This document shows positions 5,650 through 59,970 of a stretch of 64,000 nucleotides of DNA, piece by piece. Within the stretch, counting starts at the first letter, position 1. The number at the start of each line of letters is the position of its first letter. Source of the stretch: Salvia splendens (lineage: Eukaryota; Streptophyta; Magnoliopsida; Lamiales; Lamiaceae); the NCBI RefSeq assembly GCF_004379255.2, contig NC_056049.1, positions 1,364,001-1,428,000 on the forward strand, read 5' to 3'. Under the pieces are notes generated by a model. The model worked only from the letters and a program-made list of their open reading frames with translations. It did not search any database and was not told the origin of the DNA. The translations under genes were made by a program, and so were the position numbers.

Positions 5650-8100
5650 AGAAAGGTAGATGAGCTCAGTTTGATTTTGTAAAGTTCTGTGTAATCCATG
5701 TTTAGTTATTTTCTTGATAATATGTTAGAATTTGATGGTTTGAGGAGTTTTAGTTATTGGGAAAATCAGGCCTGCATTTATTTATATCAAGTGATTAGAT
5801 TATGATTGTTTTGGCAAGTTTGGAATTTTCAGACTTGAGAGATCATTTTAGTGAGATATTATACCTTGCTATTTGGCTTTTATTTTTTGTACAATTTAGT
5901 GCCCATGTTATCGTGTGCATATGGCTGTAATTCTTTCATTATCATTGTTACTTTCATTTATAATAACTATCACTTTTTATATATTGCAATATTATTTGTT
6001 AAATGAACCATAGATTGATCTGAGTCATGGGATGTGTTTAGATCAAATTCGGGGCATGTTTGGGGCTGACTTGGGCTCGGGGGTGCTTGGACCGAGTTTG
6101 CTCTGGGTCGACCGAGCCCGGCCGACCCATAAGGGTGCGCACGTAGGAGTGTTTATCATCATTTTATAAGCTTAATTATAGTTGCTTTTAGCTCAATTAA
6201 TAAAATTGAATATTAAATTATAAATTTTCAGTTTCTCTTCATTGTTTTATCCGTGTATAAAATGATACTATTGATATTTTTGGTGATGCTGAAATAGTAT
6301 TTTTTTTCATTAAAATAAAAAAGAAATGAAACGAAAAAAAGAAAAAGATTTTAAATAATGGCGTTACATGTATCACCAGATATTGATCAAGTCGTTAAAT
6401 TTAAATAACTATTAGTATTAAACTTTGATACTACTATTAGTTATCCTGTCATTTGTATAGTTTTGACAAAATTTTCTATCTTGACTGTGGAATACTTCTT
6501 TCATAATTGCTTTAGTATTTAAATAAAACTAAGAGGACAAATACTATATATTAATTTCTTTGACCTTGAGAAATAATTTTGGCAGACATCCTACCAAATT
6601 TCTAAGTCAAAAGTTGGACTTTCTTGGAGTATAAAACACGCCATTGAGCAGTCACTAAATTAATAGTAGTAAATAAAATGGTTACAATTATACTTTAAAA
6701 AATAGTTTAATTTTATAAACTAGTCTAATTGGAATAGGACTTGGAAGTGTGTTCAAACTAACTATAAAATATTAACTTAGTCTCCTTGAGGTTTAAAGTT
6801 TATTAGTACTGATTTATTTGAGGTAATTTCTTCTAAATAAGAATAGTCTAAATGAAATATGTTGTGTGTAATTGTTGTTGACTGTAAGAAAATTAGAAAA
6901 TTTCTATATTTACATTCATCACATATGTAGATTCATAACATAATAGAACAGAACCCATCTACTAATTCGGATCTCAACCATCAAATGTAATCTGGGTTAG
7001 AGATAGTCTCATGTGATGACGTCGTCAAATAATCCAAGCACCAAAATATATAAAGGTAGTTGATAATTTTCTTTTAAAGATAGTCTACTCGCACCAAAAT
7101 AAATTTCTTTTGGCGATAATCTCTATGATGATAATTGATCATTTTAATAAAAGCTCATAAAGACTTGTGTAAGAGCGTGCGTACTGTATAACTGTTTCAA
7201 CGAGAATGTGTCAACGATCTTACGAATTTTTTTACAATAACAGATCTACGTCAGCGCAAAAACGTTATCGCTTGAGTACACATAAATTGATATTTATTAG
7301 TACTTTGTAGTACTAGTAATACCTACTCCATCTGTCCCATTAGAAATGCAACATTTTCCTTTTTAGATTGTCACACTAAAAATGAAATGTTTCCTAAAAT
7401 AGAAACAACGTCCTCTCTACTTTTTAATCTCTCTTACTTTACTCTCTCTTCATTAACTCACAAAACAACACTGCATAAAATCGCATGTGAGCATGCGATG
7501 AAGCTATATTTTTCCAAACTAGTTGCGCATGTCTATATGCTGAATTCTACATAATGAATTCTTCTTAATTAGTCGATAGATAAGCAGCAAATAAAACTTA
7601 GATACATAAAAAAACATACGTCAAAAATCCTGATCACCTTCTCATCACACTTTCATAGCCCATTATCCAATATCCTATTTAACAATACTTTCAAATCTCC
7701 TAGCTCATTTACCCTCACTTTCGCGACTTATTCAGTAGTAGAAGGAACGAAATTCAGTACTAGAAGGAACGAAACGAAAGTAATTCAACAGGGAATGAAA
7801 AAGACGAGAACAATAGACAAAATAGTCGGCACTCGAAATACTGCTAGGTGCACCACAGTCCATCGAAGTATACTCGACGACGACACGACACGACATAAAA
7901 CGACATCGACTATTCCCACTATATATTTTTGTCACAATCTCCAATAAAAAAATTTCCCGAATAAAAGTGGAGTGCACATCTATCATTTCATTACAACATC
8001 ATAATGAGATGCTTGTAAGGAAATGAAATTTATCAATCCCAATAAAAAGGAGTCAGTTATTAGTGATGAAAGCCATATCCTGTCACTCACAAAAACCAAT
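5650..8100. other. Intergenic region, no gene seen
   Basis: AT-rich spacer between the ethylene receptor and the PABP-interacting protein gene. A Stowaway-like left end (ctccatctgtcccatt) begins near 7325 without a convincing right end. The predicted ORFs are short and show no family features. Confidence 0.5.
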
Positions 8101-17483: not shown

Positions 17484-19108
17484 GAGCATCCACAACCGTG
17501 CTCTTGCCAGCGGCACGGTTGTGGGCCCGGGCGGTACTATTCATGCCTGCTCTCTGGCAAGAGCACAACACCCACAACTGTGCTCTTCCGCAAGGACGAG
17601 CACAATTAATATAAAATTCAATTACACAAAAACATTTTCATAATACTAAAATTCATTAAAAAAACCACAATAAAAATAACAAATTACAAATAAAATAAAA
17701 AGACATAATTAAAATCCTAAAAATTAAAAATTACATAATTAAAATACTAAAAATTAAAAATTACATAATTAAACTCCTAAAAATTAAAAATTACATAATT
17801 ATTGGCTAATATAACCCGAGGAAGACTACGCATCCGGCGGCACCAACCCCAATTGTTTTTGGAGACCCAATATCATGGACTCGTGCGTTTGAAGTTGCGT
17901 GGGGGTCATAGTTGACCTATCGGCCATATTGAGTTGGGCCAAAAGGGCTACCCAAGTTAGCTTCGGCGTCGGGAACCGCTTGGTTGGGCATCGGGGCTAC
18001 CCAAGTTAGCTTCGGCGAGTTGGCTAGCCACTTCTTCGCCGGCGTCGGATAGGGATGCCGACCGTGAGCGTTTGGAGGAGCCGCTAGAGGAGGATGTTAT
18101 GCCTCCCTTATACTTCGGGTGCGTCCGCGTCTCCTGCCAAACGTTAAGATATTTGAACGACTTACCGTTCATGGATTGGTAGGTGCTCAGCGAGGCGGTG
18201 ATGATGTCGACCTCGCTTCGGCCGCTCCCGGCATTCCGGGACTCCTGGATGAAATAGCCGTTGAACTTGCCAATTTTTTCGTTGGCTCGGCCGATGCAGT
18301 TGCGCACCATACTCTCGTTGCGCTCGATCGTTCCCGGCGGCCGGTGTGCATTGTACCGGCTAGAGACGCGCCACCAAAAGTGATTCGGCACCGGCGCGAC
18401 ACCGGCGCGAGATGGAGGATTCGGCATTTGGGAAGGGGCGCGAGGCCTAGGCTCCGGTGTCCACCCGTAGCGCCCATCGGAGGCACCTTGATCGTCGATT
18501 GGGTATGGCCGGTAGCCACTCGGAACGCCCGAATCTTGGGTGAGAGGAGGGGCCGAATATTCCGTTTCCGGACTATGAAACGGTTGCGAACCGAACCATT
18601 CGGGGTTCCAACCGTGAGAGCCGCTTGGGTTGTCGTCGTTACCGGACATAGTGGTGTTGTAGGGTGTGAGAGGAAGATGAAAATGGATATGAGAGATTGA
18701 TGATGAGAATTGTGTAGTGAAAGTGTGAATTTTTTGGAGTGAAATTGGGGGTATTTATAGATGAAAGTGTGTATTTTTGGTGTAAAAAAAATAAAAAAAA
18801 AATTAAAAAGTGGGGAAAAACGGTTATAAACGGATATAATTTTTTGGGGAAGTGAAATTTTTTTTTTTATTTTTTATCGATTTTTTTAATAAAAATCCGA
18901 TTTTTTAAAAAAAAAAATAAAAAAATGTTTGAAACCAACGGCTATGTCGTTGGCGAATGGGAGACCGCCACGTGTGCGTCCACTGGCACGGACGTGCTCG
19001 ATACATCGAGCAGCGCCGTGCCAGCGGCGCGGTTGCAGCGGTGGCGGTCCTTCTCCTTGCCGCTGGCACGGACGGCGGTGGCGCCAACCGCCACCGCTGC
19101 GGATGCTC
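17484..19108 (-). mobile_element. Non-autonomous PIF/Harbinger element with Myb-like ORF only
   Basis: A 1625-bp element with short terminal inverted repeats (left gagcatccac, right complement gagcatccgc) and a TTA direct duplication at 17481-17483 and 19109-19111, the 3-bp target site typical of PIF/Harbinger. Subterminal DNA is GC-rich with small repeated palindromes (caagagcac, ccagcggc). Inside is one reverse-strand ORF related to the Myb/SANT partner protein. No DDE transposase sequence was seen, so movement would need an enzyme supplied elsewhere. Confidence 0.8.
17957..18649 (-). CDS. Harbinger-associated Myb/SANT-like (ORF1-type) protein, probably truncated
   Basis: An uninterrupted 230-codon ORF inside the TIRs of the element at 17484-19108. 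The N-terminal half is Pro/Gly/Ser-rich low complexity. From about residue 88 it matches the pattern of plant Harbinger ORF1 proteins: FWWRVSSRYNAHRPP, then a Ser/Asn-rich linker, then GKSFKYLNVWQETRTHPKY near residues 160-185. The first helix of the trihelix/SANT fold seems absent, since the usual Trp-containing block before FWWRV is missing. The tail is Ser/Arg-rich with short basic clusters. In this superfamily ORF1 binds the transposon ends and recruits the transposase. Function of this copy is doubtful. Confidence 0.6.
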   Translation of the reverse strand: MSGNDDNPSGSHGWNPEWFGSQPFHSPETEYSAPPLTQDSGVPSGYRPYPIDDQGASDGRYGWTPEPRPRAPSQMPNPPSRAGVAPVPNHFWWRVSSRYNAHRPPGTIERNESMVRNCIGRANEKIGKFNGYFIQESRNAGSGRSEVDIITASLSTYQSMNGKSFKYLNVWQETRTHPKYKGGITSSSSGSSKRSRSASLSDAGEEVASQLAEANLGSPDAQPSGSRRRS

Positions 19109-28329: not shown

Positions 28330-30282
28330 TTAAGATGTGGTTTTCAGTCCCATTCCTTTTAACAATTTATGCATTTGATCACGGTTTAAACCTTTTGTTA
28401 ACGGATCCGCTAAGTTATCAACTGACCTTACATAGTCAACTGTGATAACACCACTTGTGATCAATTGCCTGACGGTATTATGTCGCCGACGAATATGTCG
28501 AGACTTACCGTTGTATAAGCCACTATGTGCTATCCCTATAGCTGCTTGGCTATCACAGTATATCACTACTGTCGGCACTGGCTTCTTCCAACATGGAATA
28601 CATTCTAGGAAATTTCTGAGCCACTCGGCTTCTTCCCCTGCTTTATCCAATGCAATAAACTCAGATTCCATGGTGGAACGAGCAATACACGTCTGTTTCA
28701 TTGATTTCCACGAAACAGCACCACCCCCAACAATGAACACATAACCACTCGTCGAGAACGAGTCTTTTGAATCAGAGATCCAATTTGCATCACAATACCC
28801 TTCAAGTACCTGGGGATATCTTGTGTACTGCAGCTCAAAGTTAAGAGTATACTTCAAGTATCTCAAAACCCTACGCAGAGCTTTCCAATGTTCCTTGCTT
28901 GGGTTGCTCGTAAATCGGCTCAGCTTATTCACCGTACACGCAAGATCTGGTCGGGTGCAGTTTGTGATAAACATCAAACTCCCTATGATCCTTGCATATT
29001 CTTCTTGAGCTACAGGCTCACCCGTGTGCTTACTCAAATGCACGTTGGGTTCCAATGGAGTCTTAGCTGGCTCACAATCGAATGAGTGAAATTTCTTTAG
29101 CACTTTCTCAATATAATGAGATTGTGTCAGAGCAATTCCCTCATGATTCGTTTTAATTTTGATTCCGAGAATCACATCAGCTAAACCCATATCTTTCATG
29201 TCGAAATTTCTCTTCAACATGTTTTTGGTTTCATTGATAATGGCACTATTGCTGCCCGTAATCAACATATCATCTACATAAAGACACACAATAACGAAAC
29301 CGTTATCTGTGTTCTTAATGTAAACACACTTATCGCACTCATTGATAGTGAAACCATTTGCCAACATCACGTTGTCAAATTTTAAATGCCATTGTAATGG
29401 TGCTTGCTTCAACCCATATAATGACTTTACCAGTTTGCATACTTTACGCTCTTGCCCAGGCACAACAAACCCTTCGGGTTGTTCCATATATATTTCTTCT
29501 TCCAGATCACCATTCAGAAACGCAGTTTTCACATCCATTTGGTGAATCTCAAGATTGTGCAAAGCAGCAATCGCAAGAAGCACCCGAATGGAAGTGATTC
29601 TCGTAACAGGTGAATAGGTATCAAAAAAGTCATGCCCTTCTTTCTGCTTAAAGCCTTGGACAACTAGGCGAGCTTTGTACTTATCTATAGTACCATCGGG
29701 CTTATATTTCCTTTTCAGAATCCACTTGCACCCTAAAGTCTTACAGCCTTCAGGCAAGTCTACTAACACCCAGGTGTTATTTCTCATGATGGATTCAATC
29801 TCACTGTTGATAGCTTCTTGCCACCACGCTGCGTCTAGGCCAGACAAAGCTTCCGCCACTGACTTTGGTTCGTCATCCAACATAAAAGTTATGAAGTCGG
29901 GACCAAATGTCTTAGCAACTTTAACTCTTTTACCACGTCTTGGTTCAACATCCTCAGGACTTGACCTCGTCCTTTTTGGAGGATTAGAACTAGTGGATTC
30001 ATCCATCATTCTTTCACTAGAATGATCCTCTTGCCTCTTACAAGGGTAAACATTCTCAAAGAATATAGCATTCCTTGACTCAATCGTTGTTCCTTCAGCC
30101 ACGCCAGGCACAGCTGACCTATGGACTAGGAAACGATAGGCACTACTATTAAGCGCATGGCCAATAAAGATGCAATCGACTGTTTTAGGGCCTACTGCAA
30201 CTTGTTTCGGAGGTGGCACTTCTACCTTCGCTAAACACCCCACACTTTGAGGTATGAATACGAAGGTTTCTTCCCTTTTCAC
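28330..30282 (-). pseudogene. Copia pol, 3' part: reverse transcriptase and RNase H
   Basis: An open frame of 650 codons, the downstream part of a Copia polyprotein cut from its upstream half by a stop codon at 30279-30281. The start Met is only the first ATG after that stop, not a natural start. Contents: the end of integrase and a Pro/Ser-rich linker; the RT domain at about residues 170-410 ([17 protein letters not shown] block, [12 protein letters not shown], active-site YVDDMLI); and RNase H at about 500-640 ([31 protein letters not shown]). The frame is otherwise unbroken. Confidence 0.9.
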
Positions 30283-31649
30283 AACTCATAAGGAGTTACA
30301 TCCCTATTTTTTAGTGGAATTTTGTTCAGGATATGATTCGCTGTTAACACAGCCTTCCCCCACATGTTCTGGGGTAATCCTGAATTAATCAACAAAGCAT
30401 TCATCATCTCTTTTAGTGTTCGATTTTTGCGTTCAGCAACACCATTTGATTGAAGAGAATATGGAGTTGTGGTTTGGTGAAATATACCACTTGCATGACA
30501 TAATTCTGCAAACGGAGCTACATACTCACCACCTCTATCACTTCGAACACACTTAATTCGACAATTAAGTTGATTTTCGGCTTCATTTTTGAAGTCTTTA
30601 AACGCTTCAATTGCCTCATCTTTACTTCTTAATAAGTAAAGGTAACAATACCTTGCGCAATCATCTATAAATGTGATGAAGTACTTTTTACCACCTCTTG
30701 TTTGCACAAATTTTAAATCACATACGTCTGTATGGATCAATTCAAGAGGTTTTGTGCTTCGCTCTACCGAATGGAACGGCAGTTTAGCCATTTTGGCTTC
30801 AACACACACTTCACATCTTTCTTGTGAGTTAAATTTATCTACTTTTAGTAAATTAAGATTTACTAATCTTTTTATAGCATTTAGATTTACATGTCCCAAT
30901 CTATTGTGCCATAAGTCAGAGCTTTCAAGCAAATAAGAGGATGTGTCATTTTCCTTATTGCTTATTCCTTTTCCACGGTGAATGACCGTAACATTCAGCT
31001 CAAAAAGCCCATTCACTAGGTGACCTTCACCTATGAACTTTTCATACTTGGTCAATATAACCTTTTCACACTCAAATTCTAGTGAAAATCCATGATTTAC
31101 TAGAAGTGAGTCTGACACCAAATTATTTCGGATGTCTGGGACATGCAGTACATCCCTAAGGGTAAGAACTTTTCCAGATCCTACTTTTAGGAACACATTA
31201 CCCACACCAACCACCTTAGAAGAGGCTTGGTTTCCCATACGTACTTTTCTACCTCCAACAGATTTATAGGTAGAAAAAATGCTTCTTTCGGAGCACACAT
31301 GACATGTGGCACCTGTATCAACAAACCATTCATTTGGATTGTTACCATGGTTCACATCGGAGACCATTGCGATCACCTCGTGATCTTTGTTGTTTATAAC
31401 AACACGTTCAAATAATTTGCACAATATTGTCTCCAACAATAAGTACACAATTATATTGAACCATATGTGCATTGGTATGTTCAACAACTCATGCATCCCA
31501 ATTATTACTACCAAGTCTAAATTGGTCTTGCTTGTCAACTGACAAACGATAAACACAATTCTCAAGAGAATTGATCTCGGGGAATTAACCATTTCGTAGC
31601 CCATGAACATTGCGACTGTTCGTTTCTTCATTCCAGCTTTGGTGCTCAT
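30279..31649 (-). pseudogene. Copia pol, 5' part: protease and integrase with degraded gag region
   Basis: A 456-codon frame ending at a TGA where related proteins usually keep Trp. From about residue 105 it is normal Copia: aspartic protease ([15 protein letters not shown] at 111-113); GAG-pre-integrase ([11 protein letters not shown]); and integrase core with conserved TDVCDLK, SDRGGEY and [14 protein letters not shown], i.e. the D,D,E residues. The first ~100 residues are hydrophobic and unlike gag. A zinc knuckle is not in frame. The 63 bp between the 5' LTR and the ATG leaves no space for gag, so most of it is deleted or frameshifted. Confidence 0.88.
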
Positions 31650-31712
31650 GTTTCCTCCAACTTCAATTGGTATAATCCTGTCTTAGAAGAGTACACTAAT
31701 TTGTCTTGCGAT

Positions 31713-35338: not shown

Positions 35339-35999
35339 TCACTTATAAATGATGTCCTGTTTATTTAAATTAATGTAATCATAATATAAGAGTATTTTCT
35401 AATTGTTCACTTCTCGGATCGTAAAAACCACATTTATGGGTTTTCTAACTATTCTTTCCCGAATTACAAAAAAGAGAATCAGATCTCACACGGTAACTTT
35501 TAGAAAATAAAAAATTGGTTGCATCAATATAGTTCAAAATTTTCACGAATTTAAGCTCTTCTAACTCATGAATTGTAATTCATGCGTGAATTTGATGAGC
35601 AAAATTCGTGAATTTAACACGTATGGACTTACTACAACGTGAGACATTATCCATTCTGATGTTGGATCGATCACGAGAATGCATGAGCATATGTGAAAAC
35701 GAAACCATGGATCGCTCAAGTTTCTAAATCTCACTTATTAAATTATCCAAAAGCTACCACTCAACTAACAATAAAGTCTATATATACGCAATAAAATCCT
35801 ATTACAAATTGAAAGCGAAAAGATAAATTCAAATGTGTAAGGAGCTTGGATTATATGCAAACTCAACCTCTAATCCTAACTAAAACGACTGTAAACAAAT
35901 CCAATCTCTTAATCTTCATCTCAAGAGGCCTAACACCAATACATTGTATGTGTGTTGGAATGATGCATCCAAATCGAGGGATGGAATCAAGACGATGAC
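35339..35999. other. 3' flank of the peptide gene, no further gene
   Basis: AT-rich trailer and spacer between the peptide stop and the TAA flank of the Harbinger element. No coding features were recognised. An ORF that starts here at 35944 runs into the transposon only by chance. Confidence 0.5.
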
Positions 36000-36002
36000 T
36001 AA

Positions 36003-37346
36003 GAGCATCCGCATCGGCGTCTCGAAGGGGGCTCGATCTCGTCCCAGCGAGACGAGACCGCATCGAGACGCCGATGTGGAGGCTCCGTCTCGTCGCTTAG
36101 CCCAGGGGAAGGGGGGGTGGCAGGCTGTCTCCCCACGCGCCAGCGCCACGTGCACATTGGGGAACTTGTTCGACAAGTACCTGCACATTGGGGAAAACAC
36201 TAGGAGACTGTGTTTGATGAACTTCTGCAAAGGCGTCCGGGTAGCCTTCACCGACGAATTTCTCCTGAACCCAAGCCACGTAGATTGTCAGTTTCTGCTC
36301 CGACTTCACGAACAAGTGCACGGATTCCCCGGGATGCTTGGCAGCGTCGATTGCATGCATTGGCAATGGAAGAATTGCCATGTGGCGTGGAGGGGATCAT
36401 ACACGAGCGGCCACAAAGGCACCCACCCCACCGTTATACTCGAGGCCGTTGCTGACTACCGGCTATGGATTTGGCATGCGTTTTTCGGGGTCCCCAGATT
36501 TCGCAGGCCATCAACTTCACCGCTAACAACCGCCAGTTTAAAATGGGGTACTATCTTGCCGACGACATCTATCCGAAGTGGCCAACCTTCGTGAAGACGT
36601 TCAACAGGCCGATAGACGACAAACAAGCTCTTTTGGCGCAGAAGCAAGAGGCTGCTCGCAAGGATGTGGAGAGAGCATTCGGGGTTCTACAAGCTCGATT
36701 CCACATTATCAAATCTCTGGCTCGTATGTGATTTATGGAGAATATGGTCGACATCATGTATACGTGCATAATCTTGCACAACATGATTGTCACCGACGAA
36801 GGACCTGCACCGGGAAATTGGTTCGACCCTGAAACCCCGGGAAGCTCTTCCGCAAGTAGTCCGCCTCGCAGTGGAGTGCATCCTTCTTTGCAAGAGCGGT
36901 TGTGTGTTCGGGCAAGGACACGTGATTCTATTGCCCACGCCCAACTCCAGGAGGATCTAATGGAGCATATTTGGGCAAAATTTGGCAACCGTTAGATGAT
37001 CACCGCATCACTTTCCATGATTATGCGGATTTCAATAAATTGTAATATTAGGATTTCAATTATGTATTTTCGTATTTTCGGATAATGTAATTTTCATGAT
37101 TTTTAATGCTTTTATGAATTATTAGTATTAATTTAATATTTCAATGAGATGTTAATTGAATTTGTTGGAAATAAAAATAAAAATAAAATTGAATGAATAG
37201 TTAAGGGATGAGATGGTTAAGAGATGGAGACGGATGCAGGTGTTGTCTCTTAGTTAAGAGATGTGGTAAAAAGTGCATTGGGGCCCATGAATAGTTAAAG
37301 GATGAGACAGTTAAGAGAGAGTATTGAGACATGGATGTGAATGGCC
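36003..37346 (+). mobile_element. Decayed PIF/Harbinger element with transposase remnants
   Basis: 1344 bp between TAA direct repeats (36000-36002 and 37347-37349). TIRs are imperfect: left gagcatccgcatcggcgtc, right complement ggccattcacatccatgtc. Near the left end the motif gcatcggcgtctcg is followed by its complement cgagacgccgatg, a subterminal hairpin. Transposase homology fills 36160-36995 but is interrupted. It lies between the two related secreted peptide genes. Confidence 0.8.
36160..36995 (+). pseudogene. PIF/Harbinger DDE transposase, broken
   Basis: Pieces in two frames. The first frame (about 36160-36500) has LFDKYLHIGENTR, GFPGMLGSVDCMHWQW with the first catalytic Asp, and LWIWHAFFGV. 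After a shift and a small deletion near 36500 the second frame gives NFTANNRQFKMGYYLADDIY and KDVERAFGVLQARF with the catalytic Glu, then a TGA at 36729-36731 where Trp is usual. The C-terminal part (YTCIILHNMIV) continues to 36995. The segment with the second catalytic Asp is lost and the N-terminus is missing, so this is non-functional. Confidence 0.8.
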
Positions 37347-45492: not shown

Positions 45493-47130
45493 TGGAATTT
45501 TCAATTATTAAAATTTTTAAAATTTTAATTTTATTATAAAATTGTGATGATATTAAATTTAAATATAATATAAAATAATATTTATATAATTTAGTTAAAA
45601 TTTAAAATAAGAAGAAAGGAATATGAAATGGAATGGAATAGTCATTCCTTAGCTAAATGGATGGAATGTCTATTCCCATATGGAATGGAATGACAAGTCC
45701 AAATCGAATGGTGATTCCTAAGAAAAAAATTTACCAAGCAAAGGAATAGAATGAAGGTAGGAATGTCATTCTATTCCATCATACCAAGTACAGCTCATCT
45801 AAGCCCATGTATATATTTCGTTTCGCCTGTAATAGGATTTACCCATATGGTAAAGCCCACATAACAATAATGCAGCAAATAACCCATTAAAATTGTCATA
45901 TGTATAACATTTGAAACATACTATTGCTTATTTTGGCCCATTATATGCAAAGTCTAAGACTTGTCTTTTAAAAATAGAAACTATTTTTAATTTGGATCAT
46001 CTTTTTAAATAGAAACTTTCTTAATTTTTTATTTTAGGAAGTGCACCCCCAATCCACTAACTCTATTTCCACTATATTTTCTCTTACTCTCTCTTATTTT
46101 ATTCATTTTTCTCTTCCTCTCTCTTAAATTACCACTTTTTTCAAGAATAGAATTTATGTTATATTAACTTTTTCGAACTCATTTTGTTTTTTGTTTTATT
46201 TCTTAGAAGTCCGTTTCAAGTCAAATAGAAACTCCTATACTATGACGGGGGGAGTATATACACACCCAACAAATCTTATTTCATCATAAAATAATCCATA
46301 TATAATATATCAAAGATAAACAATATTTGTGAATATCCAAAGCAAAAAATTAGCGAGCAAATATAATTATATAATACTTCATTCGTTTCACAAGAATATA
46401 AACTCTTTCTCTTTTAGTTCATTCCATAAGAATATGCACTTTCTAATTTTGGAAACTCTTTTTTCTGTAATAAGGTGAGATTCACTCTCTATTAACCGTA
46501 CTTTAATTATTTATTATTTTTATTTTATTAATTTTGTATTAAAACTCATGCCAAATTCAAAGTGTCTATTCTTTTGGAAGAAAGGAGTAAGAAATATGAA
46601 CAATGACCATACAAATAATAAAAAGTTTAACTCAAAAGCAAAAGAGCATTAACGGATTAATAAAATCTAACATTAGTGTTACACAATAATGTGATCATCC
46701 ACACAAGCGGCACCGACACAGCAACTGCTACGAACTTCTGAAACTGAGATCTGAAGATAACTGGGTGTGTATTGTAATGTCAATGGTTGTGAAATTAGTA
46801 CTATAGTCTTTTCTAAAATTTATGTCTAACCGAATTTTTAATGGCACTATCTACCCCTATTATTCATCCATTTTGTCTTACCTTCTTTAACATATGGACA
46901 CGTATTGCACTCAACCTATAGCATTGGCTCTTTACTGTCAATAACTACTAATTTCTGTAACTAATTAACAATATTTACATCCACATGGTTGTATTTTGTA
47001 CTATTCCCATTTCAAAAGTTCATAGGTGAATAGGAGAGAGAATTCACGAATTCAACTCATTAAAGAACCTAATTGAATGAAAGAAGACTTTACATATTAA
47101 CTTAAATCACTACTTAACTTAAAATTCCCT
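45493..47130. other. Intergenic DNA upstream of PPO
   Basis: AT-rich. A segment at 45625-45785 is built from ggaatggaat / attccattc words in opposing directions and looks like a small inverted-repeat element. A Stowaway-like fragment spans roughly 46375-46590 (cattcgtttcacaag to aagaaaggagta). No gene seen. Confidence 0.5.
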
Positions 47131-47138
47131 ATATAAAG
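47131..47138 (+). promoter_or_regulatory. TATA box of the polyphenol oxidase gene
   Basis: tatataaa 37 bp before the ATG at 47175, so the transcript leader would be very short (about 10-15 nt). Confidence 0.55.
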
Positions 47139-47174
47139 GTGGATGTAGCACACTAAGAAGTCACACCAAAAAAC

Positions 47175-48846
47175 ATGGCTTCATTTCAATCCTCCTTAAT
47201 GGTGCTCTCCACCAATCACAAACCACCCTCCGCCTCTGCAAGACGCTTCCATGTGTCATGCATCGGCGGGGGCGGAGGCGGTGTAGACCGCAGAGACCTG
47301 CTTTTAGGATTGGGAGGTCTCTATGGTGCTACAGCTGCCAACCACAATGCCCGGGCCAATCCGATCCAACCGCCGGACCTGAATGTTTGTGGGGTCCCCA
47401 AAGCCAACGGGGAGCCTCTGGATGTGAACTGCTGCCAACCCGTGTCGAACGCTATCAAAACTACGTGCTGCCGACGGTGGGGACCCTGCGCGTGAGGCCG
47501 GCCGCGCACAGGCTCCCCGAGCACCACCATGGGTACCTAGCCAAGTACGAGGAAGCCGTGAGACAGATGAAGGCGTTGGACAAGACCGACCCGGACGACC
47601 CCCGGGGCTTCACGCAGCAGGCCAACGTCCACTGCGCTTACTGCAACAACGCCTACTACCAGGTCGGGACCGAACTTCCCATCTCCGTCCACTTCTCGTG
47701 GTTGTTCTTCCCTTGGCATAGATGGTACTTGTATTTTCATGAAAGGATCTTGGGGAAATTGATCGATGACCCGACCTTCGCCTTGCCCTTCTGGAACTGG
47801 GACAACCCGTGCGGTATGCATCTACCGTCGATCTATGACAAGGAGAGCTCCCCTCTTTACGACGCCAACCGTAACCCTCTCCACCGCCCTCCCGCCATCG
47901 TTGACCTGCAGTACAAAACCGGAGCGGAGGAACCGACCGACAATGGGTTGCTGGTGAGGAGCAATCTACGTACAATGTATACTGAAATGATGAAGATCAA
48001 CAAAACTGAAGATTTTATGGGGCAGAGATATGTGGCAGGGGAAGAAGCCCCACCCTCTGCCAATGCAGGGAGAGTGGAGATAGGGTCCCACACCAGCATG
48101 CACATCTGGGTGGGGGACCCCAAGAATCCCTACCATGAAGACCTAGGGAACTTCTACTCTGCAGGGCGGGACCCAGTTTTCTACTCCCATCACGCCAATG
48201 TTGACCGACTGTGGACTATCTGGAGAGGCCTCAAGACTAAAGTTAAAAAATCCATCCGGACTACCTCAACGCGACCTTCTTGTTCTACGACGAGAACAAG
48301 GAGCTCGTGCGCGTCAGGGCCGGGGACGCCCTGGACAACGAGAAAATGGGGTACGAGTACGAGGACGCCGACATCCCCTGGGTGCACTTCCGGCCGCCCA
48401 AGAGGGCGGCCGGGGTTAAAATCCAGGACATCTCGCAAAACGCGCAGAGGCCGGAGAAGGTGTTCCCGCTCAAACTCGGCAGGATTGCTAGGATTTTGGT
48501 GTCGAAAACCGCCCCGGGCGCGGCCGACGAGAATTTATTGGTGGAGCACATACACGTCCACTCGGACAAATTCGTGAAGTTCGACGTCTACGTCAACAGC
48601 GAAGAAGACGAGCCAAAAGGCGTTGAAAACGCGGAGTACGTGGGAACCTTCGCGAAGCTTCCGCATAAGGGCGGCCACGGCGAACACTCGCTTGAAAAGG
48701 GGAAAGGAACGATTAGGTTTAGCCTGAAGGAACTGTACGAGGACATTAATATCGTTAGCGACGACGAGGAGATCGTCGTCACCATCGTTCCTCGGGCTAA
48801 CGGCCACAGCGTGACCATTGGTGGTATCAAAGTCGTCAAGGCTTGA
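47175..48846 (+). pseudogene. PPO: Polyphenol oxidase (catechol oxidase), intronless, two frameshifts
   Basis: Type-3 copper enzyme that oxidises o-diphenols to quinones in the thylakoid lumen. The N-terminus has a Ser-rich chloroplast transit region and a twin-arginine lumen signal (RRDLLLGLGGLYGA). CuA shows HCAYC and FSWLFFPWHRWYLYFHE. CuB shows HTSMHIW and FYSAGRDPVFYSHHANVDRLW. After these come the DWL-type domain (DYLNATFLFYDENKELV) and KFDV domain (KFVKFDVYVN). The frame changes twice: at or just after the A run 47457-47460, before the tyrosinase domain, and at the A run 48245-48250, between CuB and the DWL domain. Each looks like loss of one base. All copper ligands and the C-terminal domains are otherwise well kept and there are no other lesions. 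Homopolymer error in the assembly is therefore a real alternative to a recent pseudogene. Confidence 0.88.
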
Positions 48847-50017
48847 ACTCTGATGATGCTTGTGTGTGTTGTTAGTATGCAATAATTTGATTCTTCAATT
48901 ACTTGTGGTGACAAGTGTTGGGAATTTCTTGTGTGATTTTACCTTTCTGTTGTAATAATTCCGCTTTTCCGGCGGTTCACCGTTCATGTGTTGGGAATTT
49001 GTTTGCAATGTAATGCTTTTGTCTTGATATTTATCTATTTTAGTAATGTTTTATTTTGTTCATCATAATTTTTTTAATTTCTTAGATTATTTTAAGAAAT
49101 ACTACTAGTTTTCAATATTATTCAAGATTTATATTCTCATAAATCAAATTATCAGTACTAGAAATAATAATTTCAATAATCCAAATCAAGAAATCATATT
49201 TCTAGGAATTGAATAATTTAACCTTGATAACTTTAGATAATCAAATATGACTTACTGTTTATAATTAATAAATACACTATACATAAAGTTAAAGTTATTA
49301 ATTAAGAATAGTAGCCAACTTACTATTGTAAAAATAAAAATAGACTCTTTGTGTTATATTATGAATATGCATCAACAAAATATCCTCCAGCCTAACGTTT
49401 CCGGTGAATTTCCGGGAACTTTATGGTGGTAAGGACTACATGATCGCGTGAAATTAAACGATTTTTACTAATTAAACATTATCAAGTTATTTTCAAATTT
49501 TATTATAAGCATTTTGACAATATTTTACTATATATTTAAATTTGGATTACTATGTTATAATAATATATGAAACTTATTTATCATCTACTATAAAAACCAA
49601 ATGTAATTTTGATTATCAAATTAAACGAATCAAAAATAAAATGAGACTCATATACAGTGTATTTTTTAACTTTGTACAAACGGACAAACAATAAGCAAGG
49701 GGAGTAATAATAAACAAATTAACCAAATTATTTATTTCATACAACCCATAATAACGTGTCAACTTGTGATAAAATAAATTAAAGAATGCACATGGTCAAC
49801 TGAGACTATTAAAACGTACGTATTCTAATATTCAAGCTATATATCATTTGAATCTAGTAACAACTTTATCTATACAAGAGCAATTTAGCTAATTTGAATG
49901 TTTGTATAAAAAAATCAAGAAACTAACATGTTGGTGTTTGTATAATTTTGTTGAAGCAAGTCTTCTCCTATAAAACAACACAAAAAATGTTGGAAAGTAG
50001 CCATCAATTATCAAATC
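48847..50017. other. Intergenic DNA between PPO and the BBE-like pseudogene
   Basis: PPO trailer, then AT-rich spacer with no gene. A TATA-like ctataaaac near 49970 precedes the BBE-like frame. Confidence 0.5.
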
Positions 50018-51621
<1,604 letters not shown>

Positions 51622-52420: not shown

Positions 52421-53682
52421 TATGAAAGATGTCGAATGAGGTAGAGGTGGTGTTGTTGGAGGAGAATTTGTTTCACGTGGTGCTCCACCATGGTCAATGA
52501 TGGCGCCACCTCCTATCCTCTTTTAAGTTTAGGGCTTGTTCTGTTTGTCATATAGAGGTCATTTAAATTATGTATCTGTGCCTATCATGTGTTCTATTTG
52601 ACATACACCATAAATGCACAGCCCTACAAATGGGCTTTGGCCCGTTTCTTTTTGGCCATATAATGGCGTTAGTGTATCGGGGTCTGGCCCTACGATACAT
52701 ATTAGGCTCTAATCAGGGTTTGAGGTAAACCAATAACATTTGCTTTGAACATGCATAGAAAATTGGGGGAATCGTAGCATAACATTCCCAAACCAACACA
52801 AGCCCTTTGAACAAATCTGTGCAGAAGAGAAGCGACACTCACCGCAACGAGAGATTTCAGGTGAGTCTGTTCTTTGTTTTGTTTGCATTGATTAATTTTT
52901 TCGAAGGCTACAAACCCAATTCGAATTTGTAATTTTGAATTAATCCTCCTACCGGTTCATTCCCTATTTTTTTTTCGAAATCTACAAAACCCATGGAATC
53001 TCCCTTTCTAATTGAATAATTTGAATTTGTAATTTTGAATCCAACCCAAGTTTACAATTGAATTGATTAATTCATTTGAATTTGAATTTTTTTGGAGGCT
53101 AAAAAACCCTAGATCGTATTGTGGGGAATCTGCCTTTCAGTTAATGTAGCAAACGAATTTATTAATTCATTTGGCCGTTTTCGAATGCAATCCGGTGTTA
53201 TAGGTTATATGGATTGTAGAATTACGTGGCTGATTCGTTTTGTGCGTCTCGACGTGTGATTTGGGGTTTTTGAATGCAAATGAAACCGCGTAATAGATGT
53301 TAATTAAGATGTCTGGTTTAATGATAAAGAATTAAAGATGCTGAATTTTGGTTGAACTCAGTGAGAAAAATGGGAATTTTGAAGTTTTCCACTGCAATGG
53401 TGCATAGTTTAATTTTTTCTCATCCAATTGCTTACTTTGAATTTGTAATGTTGAATCCAATCGATTCAAAATATAGTGTGAGAAATATACCAGTATTTCA
53501 GCAACTTGTTGTGTGAAAAAAATTAATATTGATGTTGCATCGTGCTAATTGTGATGTAGAGAATTCACAGCTTTGTGGTTATTATTTGAATAATGAAAGG
53601 GTAGTTGAATAGTTTAAGCTTCCTTTATTTGAATGATGAAAGATTAGTTGGAATTGAAACTTATTTGTATATCTATGCACAG

Positions 53683-55215
53683 ATGAGGGAACATAAGAAG
53701 CAAAATGCTTATGTGAGGCAAATAATTGAGGACATAATTTGGACTCAAACCGTGGCGCGAATTTGTATACTGCACATGATTTTTAGCAAAGTTTCGAAGA
53801 AAAGGAGGCGAGCTGAATTTGCGTTGGCTTACGACATTCTGAATCGAGTACCGATGCAGATTCAACGTTTAAACAGACTCGTTGGGGTAACTGACACAGA
53901 TTGTTTAGTTAATTGTAGGATGGACCGGAATACGTTTGGAAGGTTGTGTTCATTGTTTACAGAGTTGGGAATGTTACGCGTCCGGCGGTTCGTAGGGATA
54001 GAAGAGCAAGTCGCCATTTTTCTAGGTGTCATAGCACATCACAAGAAAAACCGTGTTGTTCGATTTGATCATTGGCGATCAGGGAACACAGTTTCATTCT
54101 ACGTTCATGAGGTCCTTGCAGCAGTATTAAAGTTGCATTCCTTGTTCTTGGTCAAACCCGAGCCTATTCGCGAAGATTGTGTAGATTGGCGATGGAAATG
54201 TTTTCAGGTATGTTTTATATTTTAGTAGCGAAGACTATTCTTTTTGGAATAAACTATATATTCAGCATTTCACTACGTGAGTGTGTGGCTACTTCTTGTG
54301 CATACAGGGGTGTCTTGGTGCTCTTGATGGCACCTACATTGACGTTTTAGTACCAAACGAGGACAAACCACGGTTTAGGAATAGGAAGGGTCAGATAACA
54401 ACCAACACTTTGGCCGCTTGCGACAGGCACATGCGTTTCACATACATATTACCCGGCTGGGAGGGATCAGCTGGCGATGCTCGAGTGCTTCGCGATGCCG
54501 TAACTCGTCCTCATGGGTTGCGAGTCCCAATAGGTAAATTGACTAGCTTTGAATAAGTTACAATATTCAGCAACATATATCAATTCAAATGGAAAATTTA
54601 TATTTGGTTAGTTTTTACTAAACTGATGTTGAGTTTTGTCTGGTCTAGGTAATTATTATTTGTGTGATAATGGATATGCGAACAGTGAAGGTTTTCTAAC
54701 CCCTTACAAGGGGGTGAGGTATCACCTCCAAGATTGGGGTCCTGATGCGCAAATTCCACAAAATGCTGTAGAGCTCTTCAACATGCGTCATACCAAAGCT
54801 AGGAATGTAATTGAGAGAGCATTCGCGGTACTGAAGATGCGGTGGGGTATTTTGCGCAGTGCCTCCTTCTATCCCCTCAAAGTTCAAATAAATTTAATTA
54901 TAGCATGCTTCCTTCTCCATAACTACGTTCGGTCTGAGATGCCAATTGATCCACTCGATGACCTTTTGGACTGCATGCCTGAGAGCCAAGGGGCTGAGGC
55001 CGAGGGAGATCATAGGGACAGTGAATACGTTGACTACGTTGAGGCAACGTCATCTTGGAATCAGCGTCGCGATGATCTGGCAAACTCGATGTGGGCTGAA
55101 GTGAGTACACCTACATGCAAATCTGTTCTTTTTTTACATGTTTCAATGCTTACATATACTGAAATGGATTCATTGCTTTATTCCATTGTCACAGCGCATA
55201 TCCACAATGCAGTGA
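53683..55215 (+). CDS. PIF/Harbinger DDE transposase (ALP1-like), apparently intact
   Basis: Nuclease of the DDE_Tnp_4 / ALP1-like family that cuts and joins Harbinger elements with the help of a Myb/SANT partner. Coding exons 53683-54207, 54308-54533, 54649-55100, 55195-55215: 1224 nt, 407 residues, phases consistent. Catalytic residues are present: Asp182 in [10 protein letters not shown], Asp232 in [12 protein letters not shown], Glu306 in [15 protein letters not shown]. The N-terminal helix-turn-helix region ([26 protein letters not shown]) is also kept. The ATG chosen follows directly on an AG acceptor. An upstream non-coding exon and an intron of about 820 bp are likely. Host-domesticated ALP1/HARBI1-type genes look similar, but here intact TIRs and a TTA duplication argue for a mobile, possibly autonomous element. 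Confidence 0.85.
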
Positions 55216-55635
55216 TTGCTTATGCGAGTTGCAAGAAGGATAGCTGCTAGCAATGTATTTCGTGTTTGGCAATATCATGTGGGACTATCAAACTTTATCA
55301 AATGTTTTCTCTAGTAATCATTAGACTTGTACACCTTCCTTCTGATTAGAAACTTGGTCAGCTTAATATGTCATTAATCTGAACTGATTTTTTTGTGTTT
55401 AATAATGTTTTCAACTTGGAACCCTTGTGGGAGTATTTATGTTTTTGTTAGTATAGTCGTTGTTTTTGGGCCAGCCTTAGAGAGTATTTGACTCCAACAT
55501 ATATAAATTTGTCTGAAAAAAAAACAAAAACAAAAAATATGTTCGCTTAAACTACAGGCAACATCCACATACTGAAATACATTCTGATTTGGGTCCACTT
55601 TGTACAATTATTTAAAAGTTACATAGGTTCCATAA

Positions 55636-56782
55636 CTAAAAAGATACCCGAAATTTTGTGACTTCAGCCGGTAACAACTCGAACTTGCACATGCTCCCTA
55701 CGGCGAGATTGTTGTCTGCTACAAATTTGTTCCAACCGTGAATTATTTTCACGTTATCATTTTGAATCTTGACGTAGACATTCCATGAATGATCACCAAC
55801 CAAAAGATTCACAGATTGAATTTTGTTATGGTCAGCAATGTGGGTTTTCCACCAAATTTCAGGCAAGCACTGCGTCAGAATTTGCAAATGAATATGATTA
55901 CTTTTTGAAAATGTACAAGTTTTATGCTTCCACAATTGAAATGAGGACAATACCATGATCCGGTCCAGTTGCGACGCAAGAAGGATAATGGTAAAAGAGG
56001 GAAGGGTCGGCACCTCCTCAACCCGTCTAACCGGACATCCCGTGTCGTCGTCGTCAGTGGATTCTGATTCACTAAATTCCTCATAGTATGATTTGTCCTT
56101 ACGCTTGGGATTGTACTCCCAATCTGGAAAGTCTAGAATAAAAAATATACATTATCGCAACCAGATAGTTGAGGACATAAGATCAAAAAGTATTCTAAAT
56201 AATTTAAAATTCATTTAATAAGCATAGAAACACTTCTAAGATTATGCACCATTAGTTTGAACGAAGATATCGGTCGATGGCATACAACCACTTGCATTGA
56301 ACCTCATGACCTTGAATTCGCCTTCACCGTGGTAACTGAAAACAACGACGTGTTTCATCCCGAGACTATTAGCAGATACAAATGCATTCCAGTTTTGATC
56401 AAAGTAGCTCTCACGACCATCCCTTGTTACGCCCACCACCCATTCAAGGCCATTGAGCATTTGGAGTCTGCAGAGATTAGGTAAGCTACCTCCATGCTCG
56501 CACATCCATTCATAAGGAATAACCTTCATGTCAAAAAAGTATGTGTCGTTGTTAGTTTGGAAAGCAAGCCTCGCATGTAAAATACATATGAATTTTCCAA
56601 CTTACCATGCGGTACAAGCATGACCGTGTAGTCAATGTCCGACAAAACGATGGTTTAATGTGCCTAGGAACCGGAAAGTTAGTGGTTATATGCAAAATAA
56701 AAATGTTCGATAATCGACAACAATAAATTACTTACTCCGGCAGCAGTGGCGGAGGAGCTGATGCTGATGCCATTGCATACAT
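55636..56782 (-). CDS. Two-B3-domain DNA-binding protein inside the transposon
   Basis: REM-like plant B3 protein on the minus strand. Coding exons 56782-56736, 56663-56606, 56523-56250, 56132-55636: 876 nt, 291 residues, all phases close. First B3 (about residues 18-115): KPSFCRTL, an IPYEW block, then LEWVVGVTRDG, NWNAFVSANSL and VVFSYHGEGEFKV, the strands and DNA-contact loops in family order. A linker with an acidic run (SESESTDDDD) follows. Second B3 (from about 210): QCLPEIWW, SWNVYVKIQ, GWNKFVADNNLAVGSMCKFELL. Exons 1 and 2 are small and depend on by-eye splicing; a second in-frame ATG lies three codons in (56773). It keeps introns, so it was not acquired as a cDNA. It sits wholly between the TIRs, facing away from the transposase gene. 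No standard Harbinger gene has B3 domains, so this is cargo or a new accessory function (inference). Confidence 0.78.
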
Positions 56783-57183
56783 GATGTGATTAGAGAATAC
56801 AGTTTGGTTCCGAAGAGTGATACTTTGGGGGCTTGTACAACATAAGCTCTTCAATATAGCTTTGTGGAGGCTACATCTTACCCGTGAGCTGATTTGACAA
56901 AGCATTTTCCAAACAAAATAAATCTGCTCCACCCATCACTATATGAAAGACAACACAGTAGCAACAATGAGCTGTAAAATCATGCAGGAATCTCCTATTA
57001 TCATGCAGGAATCTACTCTAAACAAGGCTGCGATGGCAGATATGCCCCTCACGAGTCTGATTTGTCTAGTCATTCACGGGCATACAATTGCTTGGGATGG
57101 TGATGAAATAACTCATATTTAGCTGACCCTTCAATTGAAGCTTGGACCCAGCAACTTTGGCTTCTTTCATTCCTTCACTTGAA

Positions 57184-58009
57184 ATGGGAACAAAAATCCC
57201 TCAACAAGGCTTTTTCTTTTACAAATCAAGCTGGACAGCTGAGGTAGATTCACTGCTGCTATCCTTGATAATCAAAACCAAAGAAATGAACAAGTGGAGC
57301 GGTTCCGTGATCCCCATACCCATCCTCGAAGAAGTGGCGGAGGTGCTCACCAAAGAAGTGGGGGTGCCATTCACATGGCCACAATTGTACGAGAGATTTC
57401 AGAACCTTGAAGAGAGACACATACTTTTCGACAAGGTAGTCAAAACCAACGGTGTGTATTGGAATGCTAACACCAACGTGGTCATGGCACCGGAGCAAGT
57501 ATGGAAACCCATTTTGAAGGTAGGTGGATACAATGTTTGTTTTATGTCAGCTTGTTCATTGTAACTCCATGGCTCCGTTGTTCTTGTAGGAAAATAAATT
57601 GGCTGCAGCTTATTACTATTGTGGGGACCCCGAATTTCCAAGATTGAGGTTGCTGTTCGGACCGCAAGATATTAAGCAGGAGAGTGCACCACTGATATTC
57701 AATATTTCTGACACTACCGTGCCCGTAGAGGATCTCAATCTGATGTTTAAGCCATTAGATGGAGTTGGAATGGCGCCGACCGTGGAGCTAAGCGTGTCCG
57801 TCTCTTCTCCTCCCATGCCCAAAGTGCCAAAGATGAAACGCAATTTGTTTGGAGACGGGTTCACGAATGTGGGTAGTCAGTCCAATAACGAGGATATGGA
57901 CCCGCGTATCGGGAAGAAATACCCCCCAAAGCCGAAGAAATTTCCTCCAAGCAATTTAGGTTCGCCACATGGAAGTTCATGTGGCTCTTCGAACACCCAC
58001 AAGTATTGA
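57184..58009 (+). CDS. Myb/SANT-like protein A (Myb_DNA-bind_3 type)
   Basis: Coding exons 57184-57519 and 57590-58009: 756 nt, 251 residues. The N-terminal domain follows the plant Myb/SANT-like pattern: SSWTAEVDSLLLSLI, then TWPQLYERFQNLEERHILFD, VYWNANTNVVMAPEQVWKPI, then AAAYYYCGDPEFPRLRLLFG. The C-terminal half is polar with a Lys/Pro-rich stretch (GKKYPPKPKKFPPSN) and a Ser-rich tail. The upstream frame stays open before the ATG, so an earlier start is possible only with an extra exon. Proteins of this type act as the DNA-binding partner in Harbinger transposition or occur as host regulators. It is distinct from protein B in the same element. Confidence 0.72.
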
Positions 58010-58375
58010 CGTTTTATGTTGTATTTGTCTTCCTTCTACTCTATTAAGCTAGGTTGTGTATGTGATCTATCTCGTGTACGTTTTGCTGGAATATCTATGT
58101 GGAAATTCAATCAATGAGATCAATATTTGCTGATTAAGGTTTTCCTTCAAATGCAGCTGATTAAGGAATACTAGGAAATCGTTTACTGATTAAGGCAACA
58201 TAATCCTTCCTACAAAAGATGATAGATAATAATATAATCTACAGACAATTGCAACAAGCCAATGTTGAAGAGGGGCTTCCAAAAAAAAAGTTTCAGACAG
58301 AAAATAGGCTTTATAAATTATATCAGGCAAGCCATCGACCTACGCCACCCCTTCACCCGTTGTAGATTCCCCCAT

Positions 58376-59681
58376 CTATCCCGAACCATATTTCGCAAGC
58401 ACACGAAGCACGAACGCGATACGGTCATCATCCGGCATCCCAAGAAAGAAATCCAACCTTTCCACCTTCTCCAGAATAATCTCCCCTGCATCAAACTTTT
58501 GCTCCCTTGTCAGTCCAGGCAAGCGACCTAGTTCAGCAAATACTTCCTTCCGTGCTTTGCTCAGATCGAACTCATAACCAATGCGGAGGGATAAAGAATC
58601 CAACCTCACGTTGGTGGCGTCATTGATTTTCCCCAGCAGTTCAATGAGACCATCTATAGAATGGTCAGCCTTTCTCTTTTTCCCACCCGCAGGCCGAGCA
58701 GCTTTCTCACGGTTAGTGTTGCCTGAGCTTTCAACCGGAGCATCGGGAGGAGTGCTGGTCTGACTCAGTGGATGAGAAGTGGGCACATCAGTAGAGCCAA
58801 CAGAGTTGCCAACCTCACCTCCATCGCTTGAGCCTGAGCCGGTGTCCTGAGTGTAAAGCCCATTGACCGCATCCATCAAACCAGTAGCTGATCCCCCAGC
58901 AGCCCTATCCTTACCAAAGATGACCTGCCAATGGTCCCAGAATGGCCAGCTCTTATCCCTCATGTAGCGAGCATGAGGGTCTTGCTGTACATACGAATTC
59001 GTAACATAACACACACCATCAGAATTGCCAATGTGAAGCAAACATATTGAGTATTATTTTTAAAACTAACTTGAAAACATGATGATATCCATTAGAACGA
59101 GATTTGGTACCTTGACAATTTGCGACCACTGATCGTCGTCGCAATCTATCTTGTAGTCGTCGTGGAGGTTGAACCCCACACCGCTACGACTTAAGATGCC
59201 ACGCAAAGAATTGTAGCATCTTTTCCAGGAAGTGAGCTTCGAGTTAATATGAGGAGTTGCTTTGATGTCAGTGTTGGGGTAATGCTTCTTCAGGGCTTCC
59301 TCGAGTCTGCCAAGGTAGCCTGTCCGAAATCCATTATCGGCTTTCCATCCGGTGACAACAAGGTCCTTCAGCGCAACCACAAGAATCTCCTCCTCACGGT
59401 ATGACCAGGTTCGGCGGGTTCGGTCACCGTTGCCTCTCCTTGACCGTCCAAGGCGGGAATTCACTGAACCACAACAAAATCACCCAATTAAAACTGTAAA
59501 GCACTGCAAGATCTAAGAACGAAATGCGAATTCACTGGTGCTTTCAAATAAATTACCAAACGAAATGATGTTGAACCATACGAAAATAAACTCTCTTTTA
59601 TTCAATTCTGAGATAGCTATATGTACCTTGCGAACTCGGCACATCAGGGGAAGTGAACCTTGAACGCATGTAGTCAGACAT
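58376..59681 (-). CDS. Myb/SANT-like protein B, probable transposase partner
   Basis: Coding exons 59681-59627, 59463-59111, 58984-58376: 1017 nt, 338 residues, phases consistent. After a short leader (MSDYMRSRF) and a basic segment (RSRRGNGDRTRR) comes the Myb_DNA-bind_3 domain: TWSYREEEILVVALKDLV, KATPHINSKLTSWKRCYN, GVGFNLHDDYKID, QWSQIV, then SWPFWDHWQVIFG. A Ser/Gly/Thr-rich linker and a basic cluster (GGKKRKAD, a likely nuclear signal) follow. The C-terminal helix-rich block (EFDLSKARKEVFAELGRL, EKVERLDFFLGMPDDDRIAFV) is seen in the plant Harbinger-associated family. It is convergent with the transposase gene at the opposite end of the element, the usual layout for the two essential Harbinger genes. 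Confidence 0.82.
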
Positions 59682-59970
59682 CTTCAACTGGACAAAGTGA
59701 AAATAGCTTCTGCGGAATTTGCGAGGCGATTCTGGAACACTGAAATGGAAGAGCGGCGGAAGAGAGTTGTAATATATATTCTCCAATTTAGGTTTGGGTA
59801 TTGTGGTATTTGATTTACAGCAAACCAAACACACGATATATATCACTTGTGCTTTATATAGTGCAAACCAAACAGCTGAAATGAATAACCCAACTTCTAA
59901 TTTGTGTCATATTTATCTGGCCTCTCCTTATCTACCCTAAATCCTATTGGACAAACAGAACAAGCCCTTA

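Follow-up and report, generated by a model that had tools for sequence, protein, structure and literature searches.

The Element and Its Four Genes

The 64-kb stretch of the Salvia splendens genome analyzed here (hereafter the window) contains a PIF/Harbinger DNA transposon that carries four genes, encoding a DDE transposase (TPase), a protein with two B3 domains (B3), and two different Myb/SANT-like proteins (SANT1 and SANT2; table 1). Its terminal inverted repeats (TIRs), GGGCTTGTTCTGTTTGTC, are the sole matches to this sequence at up to three mismatches in the window (0.05 expected), and the genes lie in the order TPase (+), B3 (-), SANT2 (+), and SANT1 (-). In our splice models, the reading frames of all four close and the introns are of the GT...AG type. 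An earlier sequence-only reading had reported identical 18-bp inverted ends with TTA on both sides and, inside them, an intact DDE transposase, two Myb/SANT-like genes and a B3 gene; the former is borne out by the complete identity of the TIRs, and the latter by the splice models and Pfam, which agree.

By domain searches, the transposase was assigned to the superfamily through its match to Pfam DDE_Tnp_4 (E = 4.4e-21, 75.6 bits for a cut-off of 24.8), and the long exon of SANT1 matched Myb_DNA-bind_3 (PF12776; E = 2.5e-6, 28.8 bits for a cut-off of 23.6), as befits the separate open reading frame 1 (ORF1) of these elements. SANT2 is identical to the public S. splendens protein P0003 (251/251), which matches Myb_DNA-bind_3 with E = 1.2e-8. 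The Pfam B3 profile (PF02362) matches both B3 open frames, as well as two stretches of the public S. splendens protein P0001, which corresponds to our B3 model from its residue 3 onward (228/230); the acceptor of one B3 intron is atypical (ACATGAAG), and the public gene model begins in the intron preceding it. Among solved structures, the B3 domain of VRN1 is the best sequence match for this protein (E = 2.4e-6). The best protein matches of the element genes are S. splendens proteins. Putative binding sites are a sequence at element position 59 that nearly repeats the TIR core and, at the element 3' end, two copies of TGTTTGGTTTG.

Table 1. Positions in the Window of the Transposon, Its Ends, and Its Genes
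Feature	Position	Strand	Remarks
PIF/Harbinger DNA transposon, Salvia splendens	52532-59967		7,436 bp; the window is C18:1364001-1428000
Left target-site duplication, TTA	52529..52531	n/a	The matching C17 site has a single TTA
Left TIR, GGGCTTGTTCTGTTTGTC	52532..52549	+	25 exact genome matches, reversed control 0
PIF/Harbinger DDE transposase (TPase), 407 amino acids (aa), 4 exons	53683..55215 (53683-54207, 54308-54533, 54649-55100, 55195-55215)	+	Splice model
Two-B3-domain REM/VRN1-like protein (B3), 263 aa, 5 exons	55636..56782 (56782-56736, 56663-56606, 56523-56250, 56132-55954, 55869-55636)	-	Splice model and Pfam
SANT2, second Myb/SANT-like protein, 251 aa, 2 exons	57184..58009 (57184-57519, 57590-58009)	+	Head-to-head with B3
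SANT1, canonical PIF ORF1-type Myb/SANT protein, 338 aa, 3 exons	58376..59681 (59681-59627, 59463-59111, 58984-58376)	-	Splice model
Right TIR, same as left	59950..59967	-	18/18 identical
Right target-site duplication, TTA	59968..59970	n/a	Sequence read

Copies of the Family and Recent Movement

We searched an 806-Mb S. splendens assembly for exact copies of the 18-bp TIR, using the reversed sequence as a control. The 25 matches, against none for the control, form ten complete pairs, the remaining five being single ends. Short TIRs and a 3-bp target-site duplication (TSD) are features of PIF/Harbinger elements, and the flanks of the complete copies match at 3 bp in 10/10 cases (seven TTA and two TAA, that is, nine of either kind, and one TGA). 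Six of these copies are full-length and four are internally deleted. Five full-length copies (the window, C1:14.92 Mb, C12, C18:10.65 Mb, and C620) are letter-identical over 7,436 bp, and the sixth, on C21, has one base fewer in an A run within B3 intron 1. Because flanking sequences of 500 bp, compared among the ten copies, share only a single stretch, of 90 bp at 73% identity, the copies represent separate insertions. The sequence-only reading had proposed to look for other copies with the same TIRs and held that it would fail if these always lacked the B3 and SANT genes; such copies exist, and the full-length ones carry all four genes, which excludes that outcome. The family has thus moved very recently: zero substitutions in five 7.4-kb copies suggest that they moved less than about ten thousand years ago, as judged from sequence divergence at a generally assumed neutral rate, and homogenization of the copies by assembly polishing could also contribute to their identity.

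Among the deleted copies, the one at C1:5.10 Mb lacks element positions 5838-6568, which hold the 3' end of SANT1, with AGATT microhomology. The copies at C5:37.88, C7, C11, and C13 have in common a deletion of approximately element positions 2526-3884, one substitution (element position 2490), and one junction difference, indicating that one deleted copy spread. This deletion destroys B3 and makes TPase end about 21 residues early, SANT1 and SANT2 being kept; the C7 copy has an additional 1-bp deletion within SANT2, and the C13 copy has a broken 3' end. The occurrence of this derivative at four loci implies that B3 is dispensable in cis. We also found the left part of the element on C14 (6,016 bp, identical), its left end alone on C4 (176 bp at 95%), and older copies at C5:22.29 Mb and on C16 (77-96% identity by segment, with internal deletions). 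The public protein P0006 (LOC121771880), in which the start of TPase is joined to the end of SANT2, matches the C16 copy; it is not a mis-spliced gene model, because this copy has a genomic deletion at that place.

A query made of the two joined flanks of the window element matched C17:1478892-1479148 (77% over query positions 157-429). The alignment (...AAGTTTAACATTA...) has a single TTA at the insertion point, and the nearby left flank aligns with gaps. C17 is presumably the homeologous chromosome, so that the empty TTA site, which the sequence-only reading had suggested looking for at the orthologous locus, was found within this genome, at a locus presumed to be homeologous.

B3 and SANT2 across the Genome

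Genome searches with the four proteins gave 185 matches for B3 (145 of 400 candidates scored), 174 for SANT2 (150 of 519), 217 for TPase (102 of 7,726), and 219 for SANT1 (119 of 1,323). All locus counts given here and below are among the matches listed by these searches, and loci counted as having no partner may be under-counts, two-gene elements, decayed elements or host genes; C12:9282414, for instance, has no SANT1 among the matches listed, but a direct comparison finds one. With so many TPase candidates, this genome may contain TPase relatives in very large numbers.

The B3 search recovered the full gene at eight places and four remnants, followed by relatives at 25-47% identity, the ten best matches beyond the family's own copies being at 37-47%. 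In total, 105 B3 loci and 127 SANT2 loci were listed. A SANT2 locus lies within 5 kb of 48 of these B3 loci, head-to-head in 48/48; outside the window family, this is the case for 36 of 93, again head-to-head in 36/36, whereas random rotations of all loci gave a mean of 0.22 and a maximum of 3 such proximities. Outside the family, SANT1 or TPase was found within 8 kb of 28 of 93 B3 loci and 45 of 114 SANT2 loci (rotation control about 0.47 each, maximum 3). Of the 36 nonfamily pairs, 16 have TPase or SANT1 within 8 kb, in either of two layouts: TPase+ B3- SANT2+ SANT1-, as in the window (seven pairs), or SANT1+ B3- SANT2+ TPase- (nine pairs). At C5:39359272-39362553, C10:9300024-9301918, and C19:21272453-21274379, several B3 matches follow one another on the same strand, some of them adjoining SANT2, SANT1 or TPase matches; the B3 genes of these rows may have multiplied inside some units.

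Diverged Relatives and Selection

Several of these relatives were read directly. An element of 7,184 bp occupies C3:18942604-18949787; its TIRs are GGGCGTGCTTGATTGC/GGGTGCGTTTGATTGC (13/16 positions matching; 18/21 when extended), and TAA stands on both sides. A TIR pair as good as this one with matching flanks occurred in 2 of 60 model sequences. The C3 element contains matches to all four genes, including two B3 domains, ordered and oriented as in the window, and Pfam confirms each domain type, while its transposase is only 48% identical to that of the window. We also fetched four B3 neighborhoods of 9.9 kb each, on C8, at C1:34.85 Mb, on C20, and at C11:9.89 Mb. In the C8 neighborhood, the first part of SANT2 (52%), B3 (34-45%), and TPase (57-86%) follow the window layout; the remainder of SANT2 was not found in the fetched stretch, and a SANT1 match lies just beyond it, so that the matches of all four genes follow the window order. 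B3 (with stops) and SANT2 are present at C1:34.85 Mb, and B3 alone was seen in the neighborhoods on C20 and at C11:9.89 Mb. In addition, we had taken three of the 36 pairs and fetched their B3-side flanks while the searches with TPase and SANT1 were still without results; a Harbinger gene was present in 3/3 (one TPase at 48%, E = 3e-125, and two SANT1). In Salvia divinorum, we found SANT2 relatives (P0004 and P0007-P0009, 41-47%) and a B3 relative (P0010, 42%), P0009 and P0010 probably lying on one chromosome, since the lengths reported for their contigs are equal; the other B3 relative found in a limited protein search was P0002 alone, on a 704-bp contig.

Because they are too young, the six intact full-length copies were not counted as independent evidence for selection, which we examined by comparing the window with C8. 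Synonymous divergence (dS) is saturated in this comparison and therefore has no value; the proportions of differences at second and third codon positions are 0.16 and 0.60 for TPase, 0.23 and 0.68 for SANT2 (88 codons), and 0.37 and 0.63 for B3 (174 codons). No stop occurs in the aligned C8 B3 (174 codons) or in the first part of SANT2 (88 codons). Relative to the older C16 copy, SANT2 has a ratio of nonsynonymous to synonymous divergence (dN/dS) near 1, over only 93 codons. The comparison of synonymous with nonsynonymous change advocated by the sequence-only reading gives fewer differences at second than at third positions relative to C8 and a SANT2 dN/dS near 1 relative to C16.

Origin of the B3 and SANT2 Genes

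The recurrence of head-to-head B3/SANT2 pairs in diverged loci and in the C3 element indicates that B3 and SANT2 are recurring parts of a Harbinger lineage. From these sequence comparisons, we consider it highly probable that the window element belongs to an old PIF/Harbinger lineage of Salvia with four genes, has moved very recently, and is probably autonomous. Several observations speak against this interpretation. Among the matches listed, 51 of 80 nonfamily TPase loci have no B3 or SANT2 within 8 kb, 20 of the 36 pairs have no TPase or SANT1 within 8 kb, and 45 of 93 nonfamily B3 loci have no partner. At C8, TPase contains one stop, and no TIR pair with matching flanks was found in 9.9 kb, a stretch that stops short of the SANT1 match. 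Of the three genes compared with C8, B3 has the lowest conservation, and the 6.08-kb B3-broken derivative is present at four loci. For the B3 fold, a single-sequence structure model of P0001 alone reached a predicted local distance difference test score (pLDDT) of 37 and was not used.

The sequence-only reading had left the choice between host-gene capture and a Harbinger lineage using B3 proteins; the tests favor the latter, with B3 as a recurring part, over the former. A recent capture, by which a two-gene Harbinger would have taken up host B3 and SANT genes as passengers in the manner of Pack-TYPE elements, would agree with the REM/VRN1 kind of the B3 protein, a plant type, with the spread of the B3-less derivative, and with the 45 B3 loci that have no SANT2 or Harbinger neighbor and may be host genes. 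It is nevertheless very improbable, as B3 and SANT2 turn up repeatedly in strongly diverged form: the same head-to-head layout is found across such loci and in the diverged, TIR-bounded C3 element, and no close host parent appears among the B3 matches listed, given the 37-47% of the ten best matches outside the family. Hardly more credible is the proposal that head-to-head B3/SANT pairs are a host arrangement near which Harbinger elements insert, or which they repeatedly capture. It has in its favor the 20 pairs for which no neighboring Harbinger gene is listed. Against it, B3 and SANT2 are enclosed by TPase and SANT1 within one TIR pair with its TSD in both the window element and the C3 element, no more than two layouts occur among the 16 pairs that have TPase or SANT1 listed nearby, and all three B3-side flanks fetched in advance contained a Harbinger gene.

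B3 and SANT2 might also be old passengers of the lineage, devoid of function. The amplification of B3-less copies, the fast change of B3, the stops in B3 at C1:34.85 Mb, and the SANT2 dN/dS near 1 in the short C16 comparison are all in line with this proposal; we nonetheless regard it as unlikely, in view of the stop-free C8 B3 and first SANT2 part, and of the lower second- than third-position differences in spite of saturated dS.

Comparison with Known Elements and Possible Mechanism

In the literature consulted, the PIF/Harbinger elements characterized up to that report are described as having two genes that are both required; the ORF1 protein in Harbinger3_DR is a TIR-binding protein that localizes the transposase (PMC2836001). 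The rice Ping/Pong and zebrafish Harbinger3_DR elements likewise combine a transposase with a Myb-like ORF1 and, unlike the window element, are described there with neither a B3 nor a second SANT gene (PMC2836001). The four genes found here thus depart from a "two genes only" description, which is not a criterion of membership. PePIF1, DcMaster-a, AtPIF2, and OsPIF2 have TIRs of 14-22 bp with a G-rich start, a 3-bp TSD (TTA in 2/4), a TPase of 399-427 aa, and a Myb/SANT ORF1 of 272-353 aa; elements listed in table 2 of that report span 1.5-5.1 kb, those with both ORFs being 4.2-5.1 kb long (PMC6327408). The window element resembles these four in TIRs, TSD, and protein sizes (407 and 338 aa) and differs from them in its length of 7.4 kb, as opposed to 4.2-5.1 kb for two ORFs, and in its two further genes. 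Pack-TYPE elements, including Pack-PIF, also have host-like coding DNA inside TIRs (PMC8903248), but are nonautonomous and lack a transposase, whereas the extra genes of the window element recur in diverged loci. Its intact transposase, and the lack of a close host parent among the B3 matches listed, set it apart from Pack-TYPE and Pack-PIF elements. REM/VRN1-type B3 proteins share the two B3 domains with the window protein, which differs by sitting inside a transposon. VANDAL elements of the Mutator superfamily, with their VANC anti-silencing protein, are transposons that have an accessory DNA-binding gene besides the transposase; as they belong to another superfamily and VANC is an unrelated protein, the likeness is in role only. 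Among the titles and abstract beginnings of the open-licence literature searched, we found no four-gene Harbinger and no B3 gene inside a Harbinger.

By analogy with Ping/Pong and Harbinger3_DR, the transposase would cut and paste the element, and SANT1 would bind its ends and bring the transposase into the nucleus. In this superfamily, excision is usually precise. More speculatively, B3 and SANT2 may be transcribed divergently from their shared intergenic stretch, and so be co-expressed, and are probably DNA-binding cofactors that would act in trans on the DNA of the element itself. We would tentatively put first a role in regulation or against silencing; a role in the transposition complex or in target choice is somewhat less favored, and it is rather unlikely that they are passengers or have another role. 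One may further speculate, without leaning toward it, that in a four-protein Harbinger lineage the co-expressed B3/SANT2 pair forms an obligatory second DNA-recognition or anti-silencing module, in which case the two-protein rule would have exceptions, and the ancestry of some plant REM-type B3 genes may lie in transposons.

If a family with four genes has recently been mobile, and its diverged relatives share the two additional ones, the current picture of PIF/Harbinger elements would need revision, and accessory transposon proteins could be studied in a natural system. Since the family offers both full-length copies (six) and a naturally occurring derivative without B3, the role of B3 is directly testable. 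A further lesson would be caution in annotation, since what is labeled a plant B3 or Myb/SANT protein can be encoded by a transposon.

Other Observations

In viral contigs, a pattern search gave 45 and 22 matches, with no relative among them; the TIR 18-mer occurs exactly in two IMG/VR contigs (L001 and L002), possibly by chance. By eye, two open frames were noted upstream of the element, one polyphenol-oxidase-like (47123-48843, +) and one berberine-bridge-enzyme-like (49927-51327, +), beyond which the element lies. Elsewhere in the window, inspection by eye suggested a fragment like a Pong/Harbinger-type transposase (35884-36591, +; motif LGSVDCMHWQWKNC), a frame like a Pong-type ORF1 or NAM-associated transposon protein (17960-18754, -), and a Copia-type retrotransposon polyprotein divided between two long open frames (28333-31682, -).

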